DNA of 48,374 nt from Hyphomicrobiaceae bacterium. GTDB taxonomy: Bacteria > Pseudomonadota > Alphaproteobacteria > Rhizobiales > Aestuariivirgaceae. The notes under the pieces were generated by a model. The model was not told where the DNA came from and ran no database searches. It worked only from the letters and a program-made list of their open reading frames with translations. The number at the start of each line of letters is the position of its first letter. Position 1 is the first letter of the stretch. The translations under genes and the position numbers were made by a program. The DNA lies in assembly GCA_900298995.1 (NCBI GenBank), contig OMIC01000018.1, positions 1 to 48,374 of the forward strand. Reading direction: 5' to 3'. This document shows positions 1,789-41,777 of this stretch, one piece after another.

Positions 1789-2817
1789 ATGGATTATCTC
1801 GCTTTCAATACCCGGCAAAAGGCGGCCCTTCCCTATGTGCGGGGCTGGTTGATCGGCGTCGCCTGTCTGATCTTCGTGATGGTGATTGTCGGCGGCGCAA
1901 CCCGTCTGACCGACAGCGGATTGTCGATTACTGAATGGCAGCCGCTGCTTGGGGCCATTCCTCCCTTTACGGAACAGCACTGGCTCGAGGCCTTCGAAAA
2001 GTACCGTCAGATCCCTGAGTACCAACTGGTCAACAAGGGCATGTCCCTTGAGGATTTCAAATTCATCTACTGGTGGGAGTGGGCTCATCGGTTTCTGGGG
2101 CGTGTCATAGGCCTCGCCTTCTTCCTGCCCTTCGTCTACTTCCTGGTCACCGGCGCGCTGTCGATCAGGCTCGCATTGCGCTGCGGCGCGCTCTTCGTGT
2201 TGGGCGGGCTCCAGGGCGCCCTGGGCTGGTACATGGTGACCTCTGGTCTCGTGGACCGGGTGGATGTCAGTCAGTATCGGCTGGCTGCGCATCTGAGCCT
2301 TGCGACGATCATCTTTGGCGCCCTGCTGTGGGTTGCCCTCGGCCTTGAAGCCCGCCGCCACGTGCCGCGCGATGGCCGCGAATGGACGTCACTTCTGATC
2401 GCCGGACTGGTTCTGGTTCAAGTGGCGGCAGGCGGCTTCGTGGCCGGGCTCGACGCCGGCTTCGGCTACAATACCTGGCCCTTGATGGACGGAGCCCTCG
2501 TTCCGCAGGGGCTCTTTGCCGCCCAGCCCTGGTGGCGGAACCTTTTTGAAAATGCACTGACGGTGCAATTCAACCATCGGGTTCTCGCCTACGTCATCGC
2601 CGTTCTGGCGCTATCCTATGCCTATGTGGTCCAGTCGCGTCCGGGCGCCCTGCTGGCTGGCGCCGTGCTTCTGCAGATTGCAATTGGCATCTGGACCCTG
2701 GTCTGGTCCGTGCCGCTGTGGCTGGGGCTCGCACATCAGGGCGGCGCTTTGGTGGTTTTTGCCGCGGCGATCTGGAACTTGCACAGGTCACTGTCTCGAC
2801 ACTTCCCCACAAAATGA
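1789..2817 (+). CDS. ctaA: Heme A synthase (COX15/CtaA)
   Basis: Converts heme O to heme A for aa3-type cytochrome oxidase, in the inner membrane. The 342-residue product has eight predicted transmembrane helices and the alphaproteobacterial CtaA signature: GGATRLTDSGLSITEW (about residues 35-50), WEWAHR (H100), AAHLS (H168), FNHR (H263) and AHQGG (H316), which are the four heme-site histidines in two pseudo-repeated halves. Length is normal for the family. I chose the ATG giving MDYLAFNTRQ; an in-frame TTG four codons upstream is possible. No strong ribosome binding site is visible before either. The gene ends just before a hairpin that it shares with the convergent metY. Confidence 0.95.
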   Translation: MDYLAFNTRQKAALPYVRGWLIGVACLIFVMVIVGGATRLTDSGLSITEWQPLLGAIPPFTEQHWLEAFEKYRQIPEYQLVNKGMSLEDFKFIYWWEWAHRFLGRVIGLAFFLPFVYFLVTGALSIRLALRCGALFVLGGLQGALGWYMVTSGLVDRVDVSQYRLAAHLSLATIIFGALLWVALGLEARRHVPRDGREWTSLLIAGLVLVQVAAGGFVAGLDAGFGYNTWPLMDGALVPQGLFAAQPWWRNLFENALTVQFNHRVLAYVIAVLALSYAYVVQSRPGALLAGAVLLQIAIGIWTLVWSVPLWLGLAHQGGALVVFAAAIWNLHRSLSRHFPTK

Positions 2818-2821
2818 AAAT

Positions 2822-2840
2822 GGCCGGGCTGTGCCCGGCC
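2822..2840. terminator. Convergent hairpin between ctaA and metY
   Basis: GGCCGGGC and GCCCGGCC form a perfect 8-bp stem around a TGT loop, immediately after the ctaA stop and before the metY stop on the other strand. It is AT-flanked and can work as a bidirectional terminator, although the T-run on the plus side is short. Confidence 0.7.
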
Positions 2841-2864
2841 ATGATCTTTGCCGAACAGTCCGTC

Positions 2865-4142
2865 TCAGCCCATTGCCTGGTCGAGATCGGCGATGATGTC
2901 ATCGGCGTCCTCGAGACCTACAGACAGACGGACGACGTCGGGCGTGGCGCCCGCGAGCTTCAGCTGGTCCGCGCTCAGCTGGCTGTGGGTTGTCGATGCA
3001 GGGTGGATGATGAGCGACCGCGTGTCGCCGACATTGGCGAGATGCGAGAGCAGCTTGACCGACGACACGGTCTTGACGCCCGCATCATGGCCACCCTTGA
3101 GGCCGAAAGTGAACACGGCACCCGCACCCTTCGGGCAATACTTCTTCGCGAGTGCGTGATGCTTGTCATCGGCAAGGCCCGCGTAATGGACCCACGCGAC
3201 ACGCGGATCCTTCTTGAGCCACTGCGCCACCTTTAGGGCATTGTCGCAATGCCGCTGCATGCGCAGCCCAAGTGTTTCCATGCCGGTCAGGATCAGGAAG
3301 GCGTTGAGCGGCGCGATTGCGGGTCCGAGGTCGCGCAAGCCGAGCACCCGTGCCGCAATTGCAAATGCGATATTGCCGAAGGTCTCGTGCAGCTTCATCC
3401 CATGGTAGGAGTCGTTTGGTTCTGACAGCAGGGGATAGCGGCCTGATTTCGACCAGTCGAAATTGCCGCCATCGACGATGATGCCACCCATGGAGTTGCC
3501 ATGCCCGCCCATGAATTTGGTGAGCGAATGCAGAACGATGTTGGCGCCATGCTCGATGGGCCGGCAGAGATAGGGCGTCGCCAGCGTGTTATCGACGATG
3601 AGGGGGACGCCCGCCTTGCGCGCCACTGCCGCAACAGCAGCGATATCGGTGATGCGCCCGCCCGGATTGGCAATCGATTCGATAAAGATCGCCTTGGTCT
3701 TGGGCGACAGCGCCTTCTCGATGGAGCTGATGTCTTCGGCGTCAGCCCAGACGACATGCCAGCCGAAGGATTTGAAGGAGTGGCTGAACTGATTGATCGA
3801 GCCGCCATAGAGCTGGCGGACCGCCACGAATTCATCGCCCGGCTGCATGATGGTGTGGAAGGCGAGGAGTTGCGCAGAATGGCCGGAGGCCACGGCGAGC
3901 GCCGCCGTACCGCCTTCGAGTGCAGTCACCTTTCCCTCGAGCGCCCCCTGGGTAGGGTTCATGATACGGGTATAGATGTTTCCGAAAGCCCGCAGCGCAA
4001 ACAGATCGGCGGCGTGCTGCGCATCATTGAAGACAAAGGATGTCGTCTGGTAGATCGGCGTGATGCGCGCGCCCGTGGCGGGGTCGGGTGCGGTGCCTGC
4101 ATGCAGCGCCAGCGTGTCAAAACCCGGTTTTCTCTCAGCCAT
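2865..4142 (-). CDS. metY: O-acetylhomoserine sulfhydrylase (aminocarboxypropyltransferase)
   Basis: PLP enzyme that makes homocysteine directly from O-acetylhomoserine and sulfide, in methionine synthesis. The 425-residue length fits MetY rather than the shorter (about 390 aa) cystathionine enzymes. Visible marks are the LHAG start, YTRIMNPT (cofactor phosphate region, residues 57-64), ESIANP, the VDNT Asp (D184) and the SLTK Schiff-base lysine (K209). The ATG giving MAERKPGFDT follows a GGGGAGA ribosome binding site; the frame is open further upstream but that extension is not protein-like. It has its own promoter-like sequence and lies downstream of the cytochrome b561 gene on the same strand. 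With hom and metC in this window it covers part of the homoserine-to-homocysteine route, though these genes are not linked in one operon. Confidence 0.93.
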   Translation of the reverse strand: MAERKPGFDTLALHAGTAPDPATGARITPIYQTTSFVFNDAQHAADLFALRAFGNIYTRIMNPTQGALEGKVTALEGGTAALAVASGHSAQLLAFHTIMQPGDEFVAVRQLYGGSINQFSHSFKSFGWHVVWADAEDISSIEKALSPKTKAIFIESIANPGGRITDIAAVAAVARKAGVPLIVDNTLATPYLCRPIEHGANIVLHSLTKFMGGHGNSMGGIIVDGGNFDWSKSGRYPLLSEPNDSYHGMKLHETFGNIAFAIAARVLGLRDLGPAIAPLNAFLILTGMETLGLRMQRHCDNALKVAQWLKKDPRVAWVHYAGLADDKHHALAKKYCPKGAGAVFTFGLKGGHDAGVKTVSSVKLLSHLANVGDTRSLIIHPASTTHSQLSADQLKLAGATPDVVRLSVGLEDADDIIADLDQAMG

Positions 4143-13188: not shown

Positions 13189-13405
13189 GGCCTGCTCTTG
13201 AAGGGCGATTATGGCGGAACTGTAAAGAGATTGGCCGGAAAGGCAAATTGGTCATGAGGAGGGGGGAGGGAGGGTTTGTAGGTGAGCGGCGGTGTCCAGA
13301 CCTAGGGTTCTTTTGGGAACTCCCAGCCGTGAAAACCATTGCGTCCATTGTCAGGTCTTTGCTCCCAATCTAGCAATATGCAACCGCAATCATTGGGGCC
13401 TAGGC

Positions 13406-14257
13406 ATGGCTGACAAATCTGACCTGCCGTCGTTTCAGAGCTACTTTTGGCCTGCGATCGAGTCACTTCGCGCCCGCGGCGGATCGGCAACCATCGAGGA
13501 ACTCGAAGATGACGTTGCTGCCAATCTGCACATGACCGATGAACTCCGGGCCGTGCCTCATGGCAATGGATATCGGACGCAGTTCGAGTACGAGTTGGGA
13601 TGGGTTCGAACCTATCTGAAGAAAGCTGGACTTGCCGCCAACAGTGAGCGTGGCGTTTGGTCCCTGACCGACAGCGGCGAGTCCGTCTCGGAGGCAGAGG
13701 TTCAACTGGTTCCGAATCGCGTCCGCGAGCTGGACAGGGCTGAGAGAGGCAAACGGGCCGACAGGTTGGCAGCTGAAAGTGGAGAAGATCAGGAACCGCT
13801 GTCTTGGGGAGATCACCTGCTCGAAAAGCTGCTGTCGATCAGGCCTGATGCCTTTGAAAGACTCTGCCAGCGATTGCTCCGCGAAAGCGGTTTTACGCGC
13901 GTGGAAGTGACCGGACGCACCGGGGATGGCGGAATCGATGGTATCGGCACGCTGCGTGTGAACCTAGTCTCGTTCCATGTCCTGTTCCAGTGCAAGAAAT
14001 GGCGGGGTGGTGTCGGAGCAAAGGAAGTGCGCGATTTCCGTGGCGCCATGATTGGGCGCGCGGACAAGGGTCTGATTGTCACCACGGGACACTTCACTGC
14101 GGATGCCCGAAGGGAGGCCTCGCGTGATGGAGCCCCGGCTATCGATCTTGTCGATGGAGAAGCCGTTTGCGGGCTCCTGAAGGATCTCCGACTGGGCGTG
14201 CATGTTGCTCAGGTGGAGCAGGTCTCGATTGTCGACTCCTTCTTCGAGTCGATCTGA
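13406..14257 (+). CDS. Mrr-family restriction endonuclease
   Basis: A 283-residue protein with the type IV Mrr layout: an N-terminal winged-helix Mrr_N region (about 8-90, including FWPAIESL and the SLTDSG turn) and a C-terminal PD-(D/E)xK-type nuclease domain (about 145-265). The catalytic strand motifs GDGGIDG (173-179) and QCKKW (195-199) are intact, so it should cut DNA, classically modified DNA. No methyltransferase gene is next to it, as expected for Mrr. It is divergent from phaC and sits between housekeeping genes, with lower GC than its neighbours, which hints at acquisition. I used the ATG giving MADKSDLPSF; about 38 codons of open frame upstream are not protein-like. Confidence 0.88.
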   Translation: MADKSDLPSFQSYFWPAIESLRARGGSATIEELEDDVAANLHMTDELRAVPHGNGYRTQFEYELGWVRTYLKKAGLAANSERGVWSLTDSGESVSEAEVQLVPNRVRELDRAERGKRADRLAAESGEDQEPLSWGDHLLEKLLSIRPDAFERLCQRLLRESGFTRVEVTGRTGDGGIDGIGTLRVNLVSFHVLFQCKKWRGGVGAKEVRDFRGAMIGRADKGLIVTTGHFTADARREASRDGAPAIDLVDGEAVCGLLKDLRLGVHVAQVEQVSIVDSFFESI

Positions 14258-17763: not shown

Positions 17764-18819
17764 TCAGGCGGCGTCGAGGCCGCTATCATCGAGATCGGGC
17801 ATGGCCAGCAGGATGGCGGCAATCTCCTCCTGGCCGGTCTCGAAGGCTGCGACACAGGCGGGGTCGAACTGCTCGCCCGCATTCTCCTGCAGATAGCGCA
17901 GTGCGTTGTCCCGGCTCCAGGCTGTCTTGTAGGGTTTGATGCTGGTCAGCGCGTCGAAGACATCGGCGACCGCCGCGATGCGGCCGGCGAGCGGGATCTT
18001 CTCGCCCTTGAGCCGGCGCGGATATCCCGTTCCGTCCCAGCGCTCGTGGTGGTTCAGGGCAATATCGGCTGCAAGCCGTAACAGCGGAGACTGGGCGCTG
18101 CACAGCATGTCATGGCCAATGCGCGTATGGTCTTCCATCAGCCTGCGCTCCTCGTGGGTGAGCGTGCCGCGCTTGCTGAGCAGGCTGTCCGGCAAGCCCG
18201 CCTTGCCGATGTCATGCAGCCCTGCCGCGAGCCGCAGGGCGCGGCAGGTGTCGCGTGGCAGCCCGAGCTGATGTGCGATGACCGCGCAGTAGCGGCCCAT
18301 GCGCAGGTTGTGAAGGCCGGTCTCGCGGTCCCTGAATCCGGCAATGCGCGACAGGATCGTGAAGTACTCTTCTTCGTGCTGCGCCATCTCGGCAGACGGG
18401 CCGGCAAAGGCCCGCTCGAGGCCGCCCTCCGCACGCTGGCCGACCGACTGCGCCAGCCTGCTGATGCGGGCGCGGAACTCGACGGGGTCGATTGGTCTGT
18501 GAAGCACATCCGCCACGCCGGCCTCGCGGGCGGCATGCTCGGCCCAGTCTGCTGATTCGCCCGCTGCCAGCACGATGGGCTTTGCGGCAAGCCTGGGCAC
18601 CGCGCGCATCCTCCGGGCCAGTTCGACGCCATCGATCTGCGGCATCGCCTCGGCGAAGATGGCGAGGTCATAATCAACCTCGCCAATGCCCGAGAGCAGC
18701 ATCATGGGGTCGCTGTGAAGCCGGGTGGAGAAGTTCGGCAGCTTGCGCACCATCATGTCGAGCAGCGCGAGGCTGGTGCGGTTGGCGTCCACGATCAGTA
18801 CATTGTAGTTGGGGGTCAT
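17764..18819 (-). CDS. HD-GYP phosphodiesterase with degenerate receiver domain
   Basis: A 351-residue RpfG-like layout: an N-terminal receiver-like domain (about 5-120) and a C-terminal HD-GYP domain (about 155-345) that would hydrolyse cyclic di-GMP. The HD-GYP motifs are intact: LHDIGK (H202-D203), HHERWDGTGYP (257-267) and ADVFDALTS. The receiver is unusual. The phospho-acceptor Asp aligns with A56 (FAEAMP in place of LxDxxMP), the acidic pair at the start is DA, the Thr/Ser is Ala and the Lys of the KP motif is Arg (HRPID). It therefore cannot be phosphorylated in the normal way. I chose the ATG that overlaps the TGA of the HPt gene by 4 bases; a start 4 codons earlier exists. Confidence 0.9.
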   Translation of the reverse strand: MTPNYNVLIVDANRTSLALLDMMVRKLPNFSTRLHSDPMMLLSGIGEVDYDLAIFAEAMPQIDGVELARRMRAVPRLAAKPIVLAAGESADWAEHAAREAGVADVLHRPIDPVEFRARISRLAQSVGQRAEGGLERAFAGPSAEMAQHEEEYFTILSRIAGFRDRETGLHNLRMGRYCAVIAHQLGLPRDTCRALRLAAGLHDIGKAGLPDSLLSKRGTLTHEERRLMEDHTRIGHDMLCSAQSPLLRLAADIALNHHERWDGTGYPRRLKGEKIPLAGRIAAVADVFDALTSIKPYKTAWSRDNALRYLQENAGEQFDPACVAAFETGQEEIAAILLAMPDLDDSGLDAA

Positions 18820-36735: not shown

Positions 36736-37050
36736 TCAGTCCGCAGCGATGAACACCTTGCCGCCCTCGATCTTGACGCCGTAGGTCCTGAGATTGATGC
36801 AGACGGGCGCGCCCTTGGCCTCTCCGGTGCGATAGTCGAAGCGGCCATTGTGCTTCGGGCATTCGATGATGTTGTCCATGACAAGCCCGTCCGCGAGATG
36901 GATCTTCTCGTGGGTGCAGAGGCCGTCTGTCGCATAATACTTGTCATCGGGCGAGCGGTAGACGGCGAAGGTGCGGCCGCCGTGGTCGAACCGCATCACA
37001 TCCTCTTCGGCAATGTCGCCAACGGCACAGGCTTCAATCCAGTTTGTCAT
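36736..37050 (-). CDS. mocE: MocE-type Rieske [2Fe-2S] ferredoxin
   Basis: A 104-residue ferredoxin feeding electrons to an oxygenase. The Rieske ligands are C45/H47 (CTHEKIH) and C64/H67 (CPKHNGRFD), with the usual CxH and CxxH spacing. The start VGDIAEEDVMRFDHGGRTFAVYR and the end LRTYGVKIEGGKVFIAAD match the MocE group from rhizopine catabolism. It starts 14 bases after the mocD-like gene on the same strand with its own GGAGAG ribosome binding site, so the two are co-transcribed. A dedicated reductase (MocF) was not found in the window. Confidence 0.88.
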   Translation of the reverse strand: MTNWIEACAVGDIAEEDVMRFDHGGRTFAVYRSPDDKYYATDGLCTHEKIHLADGLVMDNIIECPKHNGRFDYRTGEAKGAPVCINLRTYGVKIEGGKVFIAAD

Positions 37051-37064
37051 GGCGGTCTCTCCGT

Positions 37065-38123
37065 TCACTCTGCGGGTGCGGGCTGTGCAGGAAAGGCCTG
37101 CGGAATGGGCCGTTCCACCGACCAGCCCGGCTCGCGCACCTGGCGCAGGATTGCCGGAATGATCTCGCGGTAGGCGGCAAGCACGCTGGGGTAGGCCGGC
37201 GGGCAATAGGGTTTCATCTCTTCGTGAAGCTCGGCCAGACGGTGATAGGGAACCATCGGAAACATGTGATGTTCCACATGATAATTCATGTTCCAGTAGA
37301 TGAAGCGGAGCACCGGATTCATGTAGACGGTGCGGCAGTTGAGGCGGTGGTCGAGCACGTTCTCGGGAAGACCCGCGTGCTGGGTCAGCCCCGTGACGAT
37401 GTGCAGCCACGCGCCATACATCGTGGGCAGGGGGCCGACGAGCAGCATGGGGAGGATGGTGCCCCAGTAGACGGACAGGGCGATGACGGCCAGGTGAATG
37501 ACGAGCCACAGACGCGCCGTGCGGTAGACCCGGGCGCGTTCCATCTCCGGAATAAAGTCCGCCTAATCGGGGGTTAGACGTCCGGCGGCATGGCGCAGCA
37601 TGCTCTGGATCGCACCCCACACCTGCGGCACGGCGAAGAACATGAGGATGACTTTGAGGATCACCGTGGGACGCATGACCGCGACCTCGGGATCGCGGCC
37701 GACGATGATGGTGTCGGTGTGGTGGCGCGTGTGGCTCCAGCGCCAGACCGTTGGCTCGCGCATGATCATGAAACACGCGACGTTGTAGACGGCGTCATTC
37801 ATCCACGCCGTCTTGAAGGCGGTGCCGTGTCCGCATTCATGCCAGCGCGAGTCGCTCGAGGATCCGTAGAGCACGCCATAGGCGATGAAGAAGGGGAGGG
37901 ACCACAGTCCGGGCCAGAAATACGAGGCAAGTCCGCCGGTTACCAGGAAGGCGGCGATCCAGATCAGCGTGTCGCGGATGGCCGGGCCATCGGAGCGCTT
38001 CATCAGTTCCTTCATGCGGGCACGGGGAATGGGCGCGCGATACCATTCGGCATTGGCAAGACCGTGCTCGATGGCGTAGCGGCTGCTGGGACCCGTAAGG
38101 CTGTAGTCGTGTGGCGTGGCCAT
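37065..38123 (-). pseudogene. MocD-like desaturase-fold oxygenase interrupted by an in-frame amber codon
   Basis: A membrane di-iron oxygenase of the fatty acid desaturase superfamily, best matched to MocD. One continuous frame of 353 codons is broken by a single TAG at codon 187. The first part (186 aa) has HECGH (H95, H99) and HTRHH (H131, H134, H135). The second, in the same frame, continues ADFIPEMERARVYRTARLW and carries the third box HVEHH (H282, H285, H286). The family usually has a Glu-like residue before ADF, so GAG to TAG is a likely origin. Without read-through neither half has all iron ligands. No length change or frameshift is present, so this is recent, or a sequencing error, or programmed read-through. 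The start ATG gives MATPHDYSLT. Confidence 0.85.
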
Positions 38124-38250: not shown

Positions 38251-39270
38251 ATGGTAAAACGCCCTACAATTCAGGACCTTGCCAGAGCGGCGGGGGGGAG
38301 CGTCGCGACGGTGGACCGCGTGCTCAATCGAAGATTGCCAGTGCGGGAAGATACCGCATTGAGAGTTGTGGAGGCCGCCGAGCGCATCGGTTTTCACGCA
38401 ACCGGACTGCTGCGGCAGCGGGTCAGTGAAAAACCGCGGCGCACATTCGGCTTCCTGCTGCAGAAGAAGGATCATGAATTCTACCGCAACTTCGCAGCCG
38501 CGCTGACAGCGGCGCCCCGCCAGGCCGATGCGGTTCAATGCCGGTGCATCATTGATTTCATTGATGAAATCATCCCGGCCGTGATTGCCCAGCGCATCGT
38601 CGAGGCCGCCCAGAAATGCGACGGGCTGGCGGTGGTGGCGGTCGACCACCCGCTGGTCAACGAGGCCATCGCCAAGGCTGGCAAGCCCGTCGTGACCCTC
38701 CTGAGCGATGTCGCTGCGCCAGAAAGAAAAGCATATATCTCAGCAGATTCAATACGTTGTGGGCGAACAGCCGGCTGGGCCATCACCCGCCTCGCGCGGC
38801 GGACGGGCAAGATCGGCATCATGCTCGGCAGCCACCGCTACCTCAGCCAGGAACTGGCCGAGTCGAGTTTCCGCAGCTACGTGCGTGAGCATGCCGCCGA
38901 CTTCCAGCTTCTAGAACCCATTGTAAATCTGGAAGATTCCAGGATTTCTTATGAAGCGGCCGTCAACATGATCGCGAGCAACCCGGATCTCGTCGGCATC
39001 TATGTAGCGGGCGGTGGTCCCGAAGGGGTGATGGCGGCACTGCGCGACGAACGGGCCGGAGACCGCATCGTGACCGTCTGCAACGAGTTGACGAGCTTCA
39101 CCCGCGCAGGCTTGATCGATGGCACGCTGGATGTTGTCCTGAACACGCCGATTGTTGACATTTCGCATGCCGCCGTAGACATCCTGTCGCGCGCCACGCT
39201 GGGCGAGAGCTGGGACATGGTGCGAAGCCTGCAGTTCCCGGCGGAGCTGATCATCAGTGAAAGTCTCTGA
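38251..39270 (+). CDS. LacI family transcriptional regulator
   Basis: A 339-residue repressor. It has an N-terminal LacI helix-turn-helix (residues 5-30, IQDLARAAGGSVATVDRVLN, then the LRVVEAAERIGF hinge) and a periplasmic-binding-protein-like sensor domain (about 65-335) with GLAVVAVDHPLVNEAI and GIYVAGGGPEGVMAAL. Its place between the mocDE-like pair and the ABC importer makes it the likely regulator of both. The ligand is probably the transported sugar or cyclitol, or a product of it. The gene has no strong ribosome binding site. Confidence 0.92.
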   Translation: MVKRPTIQDLARAAGGSVATVDRVLNRRLPVREDTALRVVEAAERIGFHATGLLRQRVSEKPRRTFGFLLQKKDHEFYRNFAAALTAAPRQADAVQCRCIIDFIDEIIPAVIAQRIVEAAQKCDGLAVVAVDHPLVNEAIAKAGKPVVTLLSDVAAPERKAYISADSIRCGRTAGWAITRLARRTGKIGIMLGSHRYLSQELAESSFRSYVREHAADFQLLEPIVNLEDSRISYEAAVNMIASNPDLVGIYVAGGGPEGVMAALRDERAGDRIVTVCNELTSFTRAGLIDGTLDVVLNTPIVDISHAAVDILSRATLGESWDMVRSLQFPAELIISESL

Positions 39271-39422: not shown

Positions 39423-39611
39423 CAAGGCGCCACCCAAGAGCGCTGCGAACATGGAGATGGGAGGATGGCGAGGACGGGGTGTCCGCCGGCTGCAAGGCGC
39501 CGGGCAACCGCGGTGTCCTTCCCTGATCCCGGCAGCACAGACTTTCCCAGAGCTTGATGGGATTTCCGGCAACACTGGGGCGCCACCGGACGCCCGCAAC
39601 GGAGGAACATG

Positions 39612-40559
39612 ATGAAGAAGACATTTCTGGCAGTCGCCATGGCCGCGCTCATGTCGAGCTCGGCGATGGCCGGAACCAAGATCGGCGTGTCGATGGCGCT
39701 GTTCGACGACAACTTCCTGACCGTGCTCAGGAACGGCATGATCGAGCAGGCCAAGGGCATGGAAGGCGTCGAGCTGCAGGTCGAGGACGCGCAGAACGAC
39801 GTGGCCAAGCAGCTTGACCAGATCAAGAACTTCGCCGCGTCGGGCGTTCAGGCGATCATCGTCAACCCGGTCGACACCTCGGCCACCCAGGCGATGACCG
39901 ATGCGGCCGCCGCCGCCAACATTCCGCTGGTCTATGTCAACCGCCAGCCGATCAACGTCGACACGCTTCCCGACAACCAGGCCTTCGTCGCCTCGAACGA
40001 GGAAGAGTCCGGCACGCTCGAGACCATCGAGGTCTGCCGCCTGTTCAAGGAAGCCGGCAAGACCGAAGCCAACGTCTACGTGATGATGGGCGAGCTTTCG
40101 AACCAGGCTGCCGTGCAGCGCACCAAGGACATCCACGACGTGATGGCCAACGGCAAGTGCGCGGTGAAGCTCAACATCATCGACGAGCAGACCGCCAACT
40201 GGTCGCGTGACCAGGCCCAGGGCCTGATGACCAACTGGCTCTCGGCCGGCAAGCCGTTCGATGGCGTCATCGCCAACAACGACGAAATGGCCATCGGCGC
40301 CATCCAGGCCATGAAGGCTGCCAACATCGACATGAAGTCGGTCGTCGTGGGCGGTGTGGACGCCACGCAGGACGCTCTTGCGGCCATGCAGGCGGGCGAC
40401 CTCGACGCCACCGTGTTCCAGGACGCGGCGGGTCAGGGCAAGGGCGCGCTCGAGGCGGCTGTGAAGCTGTCGAAGGGCGAGGCGGTGGACCAGAAGGTCT
40501 ACATCCCCTTCCAGCTTGTCACCCCGGCCAACATCGACCAGTTCCTCAAGAAGAACTGA
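39612..40559 (+). CDS. Sugar/cyclitol ABC transporter substrate-binding protein (MocB/IbpA-like)
   Basis: A 315-residue periplasmic binding protein with a signal peptide (1-19, ending SAMA) and the type I fold. It shows KIGVSMALFDDNFLTVLRN, QVEDAQNDVAKQLDQI, IVNPVDT, VYVNRQPIN, VIANNDEMAIGAIQAM, GGVDATQDALAAM and ATVFQDAAGQGKG. This series is what I recall for rhizopine (MocB) and inositol (IbpA) binding proteins rather than ribose or galactose ones. A GGAGG ribosome binding site precedes two ATGs; the second gives better spacing. Its transcript ends partly at a hairpin, so it is likely made in excess of the membrane subunits. Confidence 0.93.
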   Translation: MKKTFLAVAMAALMSSSAMAGTKIGVSMALFDDNFLTVLRNGMIEQAKGMEGVELQVEDAQNDVAKQLDQIKNFAASGVQAIIVNPVDTSATQAMTDAAAAANIPLVYVNRQPINVDTLPDNQAFVASNEEESGTLETIEVCRLFKEAGKTEANVYVMMGELSNQAAVQRTKDIHDVMANGKCAVKLNIIDEQTANWSRDQAQGLMTNWLSAGKPFDGVIANNDEMAIGAIQAMKAANIDMKSVVVGGVDATQDALAAMQAGDLDATVFQDAAGQGKGALEAAVKLSKGEAVDQKVYIPFQLVTPANIDQFLKKN

Positions 40560-40604: not shown

Positions 40605-40700
40605 CTATTTCCGGACCTGACGAACGAGACGCTTGACCTGCCTCCTCTCCGGGGCTGACATGCCGGTCTTGGGAAACGGCGCAACTGGGTGGGAGGACGA

Positions 40701-41777
40701 ATGGCTGGTTCCGAGCATGGCGTGGGTGGTTTGAAATATGACACCTCCCGCAAGTCCTGGCCCCCTGAGCTGAACGTCCTGCTGGCGCTGGTGCTGATCG
40801 TGGCAGCCTTCGAGATTCTCGGACGCCTGATCATGGGCGACAGCTTCCTTCTCAATACCCGAGCCGATCTCGACAGCCTGTTCAACGAGCAGCGGCTCCA
40901 GATCATCATCCTGCAGGTATCGATCGTCGGAATCATCGCCATCGGCGTGACGCAGGTGATCATCTCCGGCGGAATCGATCTGTCATCTGGCTCCGTGGTG
41001 GGCGCCACCGCCATGATCGCCATGTCCTTTGCGCAGGTCGCCATGGTGAACGGCAACCCCAACCCCAAGGCCATCTTCCTTGAGCAGGGATGGGTCGACT
41101 TGCCGGTCATCGTCCCGGTTCTGGTGGGGCTTGGCTGCGGACTGGCGGCTGGGCTCATCAACGGGCTGCTCATCGCCTACACGCGGATCCCGCCCTTCAT
41201 CGCCACCCTGGGCATGATGGTGGCGGCGCGTGGCATGTCGCGCTGGTGGTCGAAGGGAAACCCGATCTCCTTCCCCACCGAGAGCTATGCCGAGATCGGC
41301 AAGGGCATGATGCCGGTCGTCATCTTCGTGGCGCTTGCGATCCTGTTCCAGCTCATCCTGACCTATACGAAATACGGCAAGCATTGTTATGCCATCGGCT
41401 CCAACGAGGAGGCCTCGCGCACCACCGGCATCAAGGTCGAGCATCACAAGGTGCTGGTCTATGTGATCGCCGGCATGCTGGCCTCCGTTGCAGCCATCGT
41501 GCTGAGTTCAAAGAACCTCACGGCGCAGGCCGGCATGGGCATGATGTATGAGCTCGATGCCATTGCCATGGCGGTGATCGGCGGGGTCTCGCTCTCGGGC
41601 GGGCGCGGCTCGATCATCGGAACCGTGCTCGGCGCGCTGATTTTCGGCGTCATCATCTCGGGCTTCACCTTTCTGCAGCTCGATGCCTATTATCAGGAGA
41701 TGGTGAAGGGCGTGATTATCGTCGGCGCGGTTGTGCTCGACCAATGGCGGCAGCGCCGCCGCAGCCTGAAGGGGTAA
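40701..41777 (+). CDS. Sugar ABC transporter permease (RbsC/branched-chain-type)
   Basis: A 358-residue inner-membrane permease with eight to ten hydrophobic helices. It has VTQVIISGGIDLSSGSVVG (the family-typical loop with GxDLSxGSxxG), FIATLGMMVAARGMSRW, YAIGSNEEASRTTGIKV (the ATPase-contact EAA-like loop) and ISGGVSL-type GGVSLSGGRGS. It has no sequence-specific ligand motif. GGGAGG just upstream is a good ribosome binding site. It begins about 140 bases after the binding-protein gene, and the ATPase gene follows after 3 bases. Confidence 0.95.
   Translation: MAGSEHGVGGLKYDTSRKSWPPELNVLLALVLIVAAFEILGRLIMGDSFLLNTRADLDSLFNEQRLQIIILQVSIVGIIAIGVTQVIISGGIDLSSGSVVGATAMIAMSFAQVAMVNGNPNPKAIFLEQGWVDLPVIVPVLVGLGCGLAAGLINGLLIAYTRIPPFIATLGMMVAARGMSRWWSKGNPISFPTESYAEIGKGMMPVVIFVALAILFQLILTYTKYGKHCYAIGSNEEASRTTGIKVEHHKVLVYVIAGMLASVAAIVLSSKNLTAQAGMGMMYELDAIAMAVIGGVSLSGGRGSIIGTVLGALIFGVIISGFTFLQLDAYYQEMVKGVIIVGAVVLDQWRQRRRSLKG

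Follow-up and report, generated by a model that had tools for sequence, protein, structure and literature searches.

Why does the gene of a MocD-like oxygenase, well preserved along the rest of its length, harbour a stop codon in the middle of its reading frame? The gene is found in the draft genome of an environmental bacterium, probably of the genus Aestuariivirga (2.99 Mb, 58 contigs, 99.4% complete), and the window, i.e., the whole stretch of DNA that was analysed, corresponds to the entire contig C18 (48,374 b). The original prediction offered three readings of this stop: very recent loss, an assembly or sequencing error, or amber read-through. We find the first of these to be the best supported, as the codon is a sense codon in all relative loci aligned and its flanks are preserved. 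With a probability of roughly 0.7, mocD has undergone a very recent nonsense inactivation, an ordinary loss of function.

A single in-frame TAG in a mocD-type gene

The mocD-type gene forms a single frame of 352 codons followed by its terminator, on the minus strand of the window (38123 to 37065), and the TAG at 37565-37563, codon 187, is its sole interruption. The relevant features of the window are as follows.

37563..37565, minus strand: the in-frame TAG that forms codon 187 of mocD; sense codon in 109/109 aligned relative loci
37566..38123, minus strand: upstream part of mocD, 186 codons, with HECGH (histidine box 1, residue 95) and HTRHH (box 2, residue 131); PF00487 positions 3-100
37065..37562, minus strand: downstream part of mocD, made up of 165 codons and the terminator TGA, with histidine box 3 (HVEHH at residue 282); PF00487 positions 127-248
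36736..37050, minus strand: mocE, Rieske-type ferredoxin, intact; TIGR02377 over cut-off, PF00355; start codon read from the sequence
38251..39270, plus strand: divergent LacI-family regulator, open frame; PF00356 and PF13407; adjoins mocD in many of the 80 named-genome loci (see below)
39609..40559, plus strand: binding protein of a sugar-type ABC importer, open frame; PF13407; close to mocD in several relatives
40689..41777, plus strand: ABC importer permease, open frame; PF02653
41781..42551, plus strand: ABC importer ATPase, open frame; PF00005
42580..43380, plus strand: PanB-like enzyme; PF02548, 128.2 bits; TIGR00222, 92.9 bits, under the panB cut-off of 207.55

As originally proposed, one TAG splits the gene without any change of frame. 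The two pieces match consecutive stretches of one Pfam profile, FA_desaturase (PF00487), and when an X is placed at the stop, tblastn alignments cross that column in 109/109 relative loci, indicating that the split is beyond chance. All three histidine boxes of the FA_desaturase domain, HECGH, HTRHH and HVEHH, are found in one frame, and the stop interrupts the domain before box 3, which does lie past the stop as the original prediction stated. There is no second copy of mocD, as the downstream half yields a single match in the genome (E <= 0.001).

The immediate surroundings of mocD are well preserved. Directly behind it, mocE scores 181.6 bits against the TIGR02377 profile (cut-off 136.15), and the frames encoding the LacI-family regulator, binding protein, permease, ATPase and PanB-like enzyme are open, their products matching Pfam profiles above the cut-offs; the match of the PanB-like protein begins at profile position 71 of 259. 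The description of mocE and of the importer as intact was thus accurate. The window also harbours a gene for an Mrr-type restriction endonuclease (13292-14257, Mrr_cat and Mrr_N domains).

Comparison with relatives

We aligned the gene with 109 relative loci, comprising 29 congener or same-order loci, which are the best matches of the downstream-half search besides the own one where loci are given, and 80 loci of named genomes, taken as the best among 574 confirmed. Some contigs are included twice, so that the set represents 99 distinct aligned proteins; one locus (L028) spans only part of the gene, and in another (L013) a run of 100 N interrupts the sequence. The original prediction had suggested comparing the codon in close relatives: a sense codon is present at this column in all 109 loci, the residue is identical in 103 of them, and none has a stop within its aligned part. 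This argues that a programmed stop at codon 187 is common to no relative examined, as judged from these alignments. Six close relatives align across residues 1 or 4 to 352, with gene length unchanged. The downstream half was matched in 28 of 36 congeners (E <= 0.001), including a distant match in G035 (38% identity), and a mocD match is absent in the other 8, some of which are incomplete drafts (G012, 79%; G033, 82%).

The same alignments bear on the idea of a split enzyme, whose halves would be made separately, with a restart at the ATG at 37542-37544, seven codons past the stop, before assembling. We consider it extremely improbable. A 159-aa ORF begins at this in-frame ATG just past the stop, but many relatives have the corresponding Met as an ordinary residue inside the protein, and the start scan revealed no Shine-Dalgarno-like start close to the stop. 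Besides, with no stop in the aligned part of any relative locus, the only one to break within the gene is L013, at its run of N.

Selection and age of the change

For a test of conserved columns, we retained the 104 of 109 relative loci whose aligned stretch is about 300 residues or more, which together with the own sequence gives 105 rows, 95 of them distinct. At the 104 columns conserved at >= 95% (56 before the stop and 48 after), the own MocD never deviates. It does so at 3 of the 122 columns conserved at 90% (1/64 before the stop and 2/58 after), the other sequences deviating at 2.7 on average. Relative to the six close relatives, dN/dS ranges from 0.05 to 0.12 before the stop and from 0.07 to 0.12 after it, similar to the values for pairs of relatives with L006 (0.08-0.15), with several of the dS values near saturation. 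The lack of deviation at the 104 conserved columns and dN/dS values of about 0.1 in both halves suggest that the TAG change is young. More precisely, on sequence grounds, either the stop would postdate the species split by far, or mocD would still be in use, or the base would be wrong; the undecayed state of the mocD remainder and of the cluster is compatible with a base error or a translated TAG as well.

Predicted effect on the enzyme

In an AlphaFold2 model of an intact relative (L006; mean pLDDT 83.6, pTM 0.81), residue 187 belongs to a short helix spanning 185-190, which is preceded by helix 165-179 and followed by the long helix 193-220. According to this model, the truncated protein would lack helices 193-220 and 231-249 together with the third histidine box. 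The di-iron enzymes of this family are built on three histidine boxes, and loss of activity follows for a product missing one, so the truncated MocD is predicted to be inactive. Searching PDB sequences with the half past the stop gave no match, and Foldseek returned two matches at E <= 0.001, both of them chains of FtsHi motor complexes.

We propose the following scenario for the nonsense inactivation. A single, very recent base substitution would have created the TAG from a sense codon of mocD that is highly conserved, the base call at 37563-37565 being presumably correct. Translation would halt after 186 residues, and the product would retain histidine boxes 1 and 2 but be deprived of the third one, of two predicted long helices and of numerous invariant residues. 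It should neither bind the di-iron centre nor work as an oxygenase. In this scenario mocE and the importer would persist for want of time to decay.

Other disrupted genes in the genome

Besides mocD, four genes of the genome harbour in-frame stops. A sugar ABC transporter ATPase gene on contig C27 has a TAG (L145:10215-10217, minus strand) where 14/14 aligned relatives have the same sense residue; this stop closely follows the Walker A motif. One of these 14 relatives, L197, shows a TGA at the extreme end of its alignment. TAG codons also interrupt the genes for a short-chain dehydrogenase on C21 (L205:4512-4514) and a Ppx/GppA phosphatase on C3 (L156:7486-7488). A gene for a GLIC-like ligand-gated channel on C31 has two stops, TAG then TAA (L154:18395-18397 and 18788-18790), and the piece between them matches proton-gated channels weakly (E 0.012). 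The five broken genes thus hold six stops, five of which are TAG.

A strict six-frame census was performed with 1.14 Mb of the own genome against 1.2 Mb of the sister genome G018 plus other loci, and the reverse census was run for G018. It yielded six candidates in the own sample (five TAG, one TGA) and four in G018 (two TAG, one TAA, one TGA). Upon inspection by eye, four of the six own candidates, all TAG, and none of the four from G018 were judged genuine, in a sample biased by the fact that the C27 and C21 stretches were chosen after family searches had shown TAG there and that mocD was the starting finding. The two own candidates dropped by eye were L149 (TAG) and L176 (TGA), and the strongest G018 candidate, L252, reads against the start of an apparent cold-shock gene and lacks a Pfam match. 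Censuses based on codon statistics, or on homology with weak or no frame control, mostly collected antisense shadow frames and tandem genes and were discarded. A frameshift census gave one pair with G018 queries against the own sample and one with own queries against G018. In whole-genome family searches, which are less subject to this sampling bias, in-frame stops were found in 1/96 PF00005, 1/41 PF13561 and 0/76 PF00528 domain matches of the own genome, compared with 0/123 PF00005 matches in G018 and 0/112 PF13561 matches in three congeners; the excess over congeners is small.

These disruptions are relevant to the main rival of a recent nonsense change, a sequence error. The TAG might stem from an error in base calling, consensus or assembly, or represent a minority-strain allele of a mixed sample, in which case mocD would be intact in the living cell. 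We regard this as possible but rather unlikely. The good preservation of mocD on either side of the TAG is in keeping with an error, as are the draft state of the assembly and the presence in it of several genes each broken by one small change, with no genuine case among the G018 candidates. Nevertheless, four in-frame stops per ~95,000 residues aligned with G018 would imply about one wrong base in 2,000-3,400 (using a nonsense fraction of 0.028-0.048), a high rate for a 99%-complete assembly, although this is a weak point given that three of the four stops were known before sampling and the true rate is maybe several-fold lower. The two stops of the GLIC-like gene also argue against an error.

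Is UAG translated?

The presence of TAG in the first three broken genes prompted us to consider amber suppression. In this hypothesis, the Aestuariivirga lineage would tolerate UAG, by way of a suppressor tRNA encoded outside the draft or of leaky termination, so that in-frame TAGs would accumulate, TAG terminators would dwindle and full-length MocD would be made. We find this very unlikely. It would account for the prevalence of TAG among the in-frame stops and for the unrelaxed selection on mocD; TAG terminators are also fewer in the own genome (33 of 224 genes) than among the G018 orthologues (59 of 224), a difference seen in an unpolarised comparison of two species. However, from codon usage, TAG is expected to represent 59.5-61.8% of single-step nonsense changes, which makes five TAG out of six stops unremarkable. 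One of the six stops is TAA, and yet another gene, for a reductase on C39 (see below), is broken by a frameshift. TAG also serves as the terminator of 135 of 688 long ORFs, and it occurs at codon 187 in none of the 109 relative loci.

Nor does the translation machinery point to read-through. The original prediction suggested searching the genome for an amber suppressor tRNA; none of the 44 Rfam tRNA matches has a CUA anticodon (read by ARAGORN or, for two short ones, from the folded loop), in a set that is incomplete as it lacks the Asp-GTC, Ile-GAT, Ala-TGC and Arg-ACG genes. RF1 is intact, with a TIGR00019 score of 487.3 bits (cut-off 423.25) and without stops. PylS has no match in the genome at E <= 0.001, in a search that detected it in 13 of 14 control genomes, including Methanosarcina acetivorans, one of the matches being over the cut-off. 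The read-through proposed in the original prediction thus finds little support.

The likely partner reductase

The mocDE cluster is devoid of a mocF-type reductase gene. The sole close homologue of such a reductase in the genome, a MocF-like ferredoxin reductase, is encoded on C39 (L163:13139-14343, minus strand), the next match having an E value of 5.5e-15, and its gene harbours a frameshift near 13450. This frameshift, found with queries from other loci rather than through the frameshift census, falls between two blocks that share 77% and 78% identity with the L069 protein, and the pieces match Pyr_redox_2 and Reductase_C. Homologous reductase genes are present behind mocE in L069, L072, L082, L092 and L142, and the congeners G011, G019, G001 and G018 have the C39 reductase gene with an open frame of at least 417 aa, on contigs other than that of mocD. 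We infer that the C39 reductase is the likely partner of MocD. As its gene adjoins that of an NMT1-type transporter rather than mocDE, it may instead serve a different oxygenase.

The original prediction deemed simple decay of mocD odd in view of the intact neighbouring genes. This argument is weakened by the frameshift in the likely partner reductase gene, by the other genes with in-frame stops and by the 8 of 36 congeners that have no mocD match.

Relation to known systems and significance

Nonsense pseudogenes of recent origin are a general kind in bacteria. Like them, the mocD gene has one inactivating change, intact orthologues, and flanks of the stop under purifying selection. It differs from them in general in that its likely partner reductase is disrupted too, by an independent frameshift, and in that the allele is known from the assembly alone.

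The gene arrangement is also reminiscent of mocDEF of rhizopine catabolism in Rhizobium and Sinorhizobium, with an FA_desaturase-fold MocD followed by the MocE ferredoxin, and with a reductase homologue in the genome. Unlike in rhizobia, mocD is broken, the reductase gene is frameshifted and on a separate contig, and a LacI-family regulator gene adjoins. The importer does not appear to have a rhizopine-type binding protein, as the latter scores 33 bits against NF052284 (cut-off 420). In PMC10107442, the rhizobial mocDEF genes are described as one transcriptional unit with a mocD promoter induced by rhizopine, and its reference list names a model of the ferredoxin oxygenase complex.

Single polypeptides that combine a MocD-like oxygenase, a Rieske domain and an NAD_binding_1 reductase domain are encoded at L139:7353-9695 and L096:1182-3479, in Acidobacteriaceae and Verrucomicrobiales records. 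These fusions share the oxygenase and Rieske domains with the system described here but differ from it by being one polypeptide and by their NAD_binding_1 type of reductase.

By itself, the mocD case looks ordinary and does not look like a novel mode of genetic decoding; intact neighbours, in particular, should not be taken as evidence for read-through. If the change is real, it would provide a snapshot of the loss of an accessory oxygenase pathway, with a nonsense change in the oxygenase gene and a frameshift in that of the likely reductase, during which the importer and the ferredoxin, judging from their genes, still appear functional.
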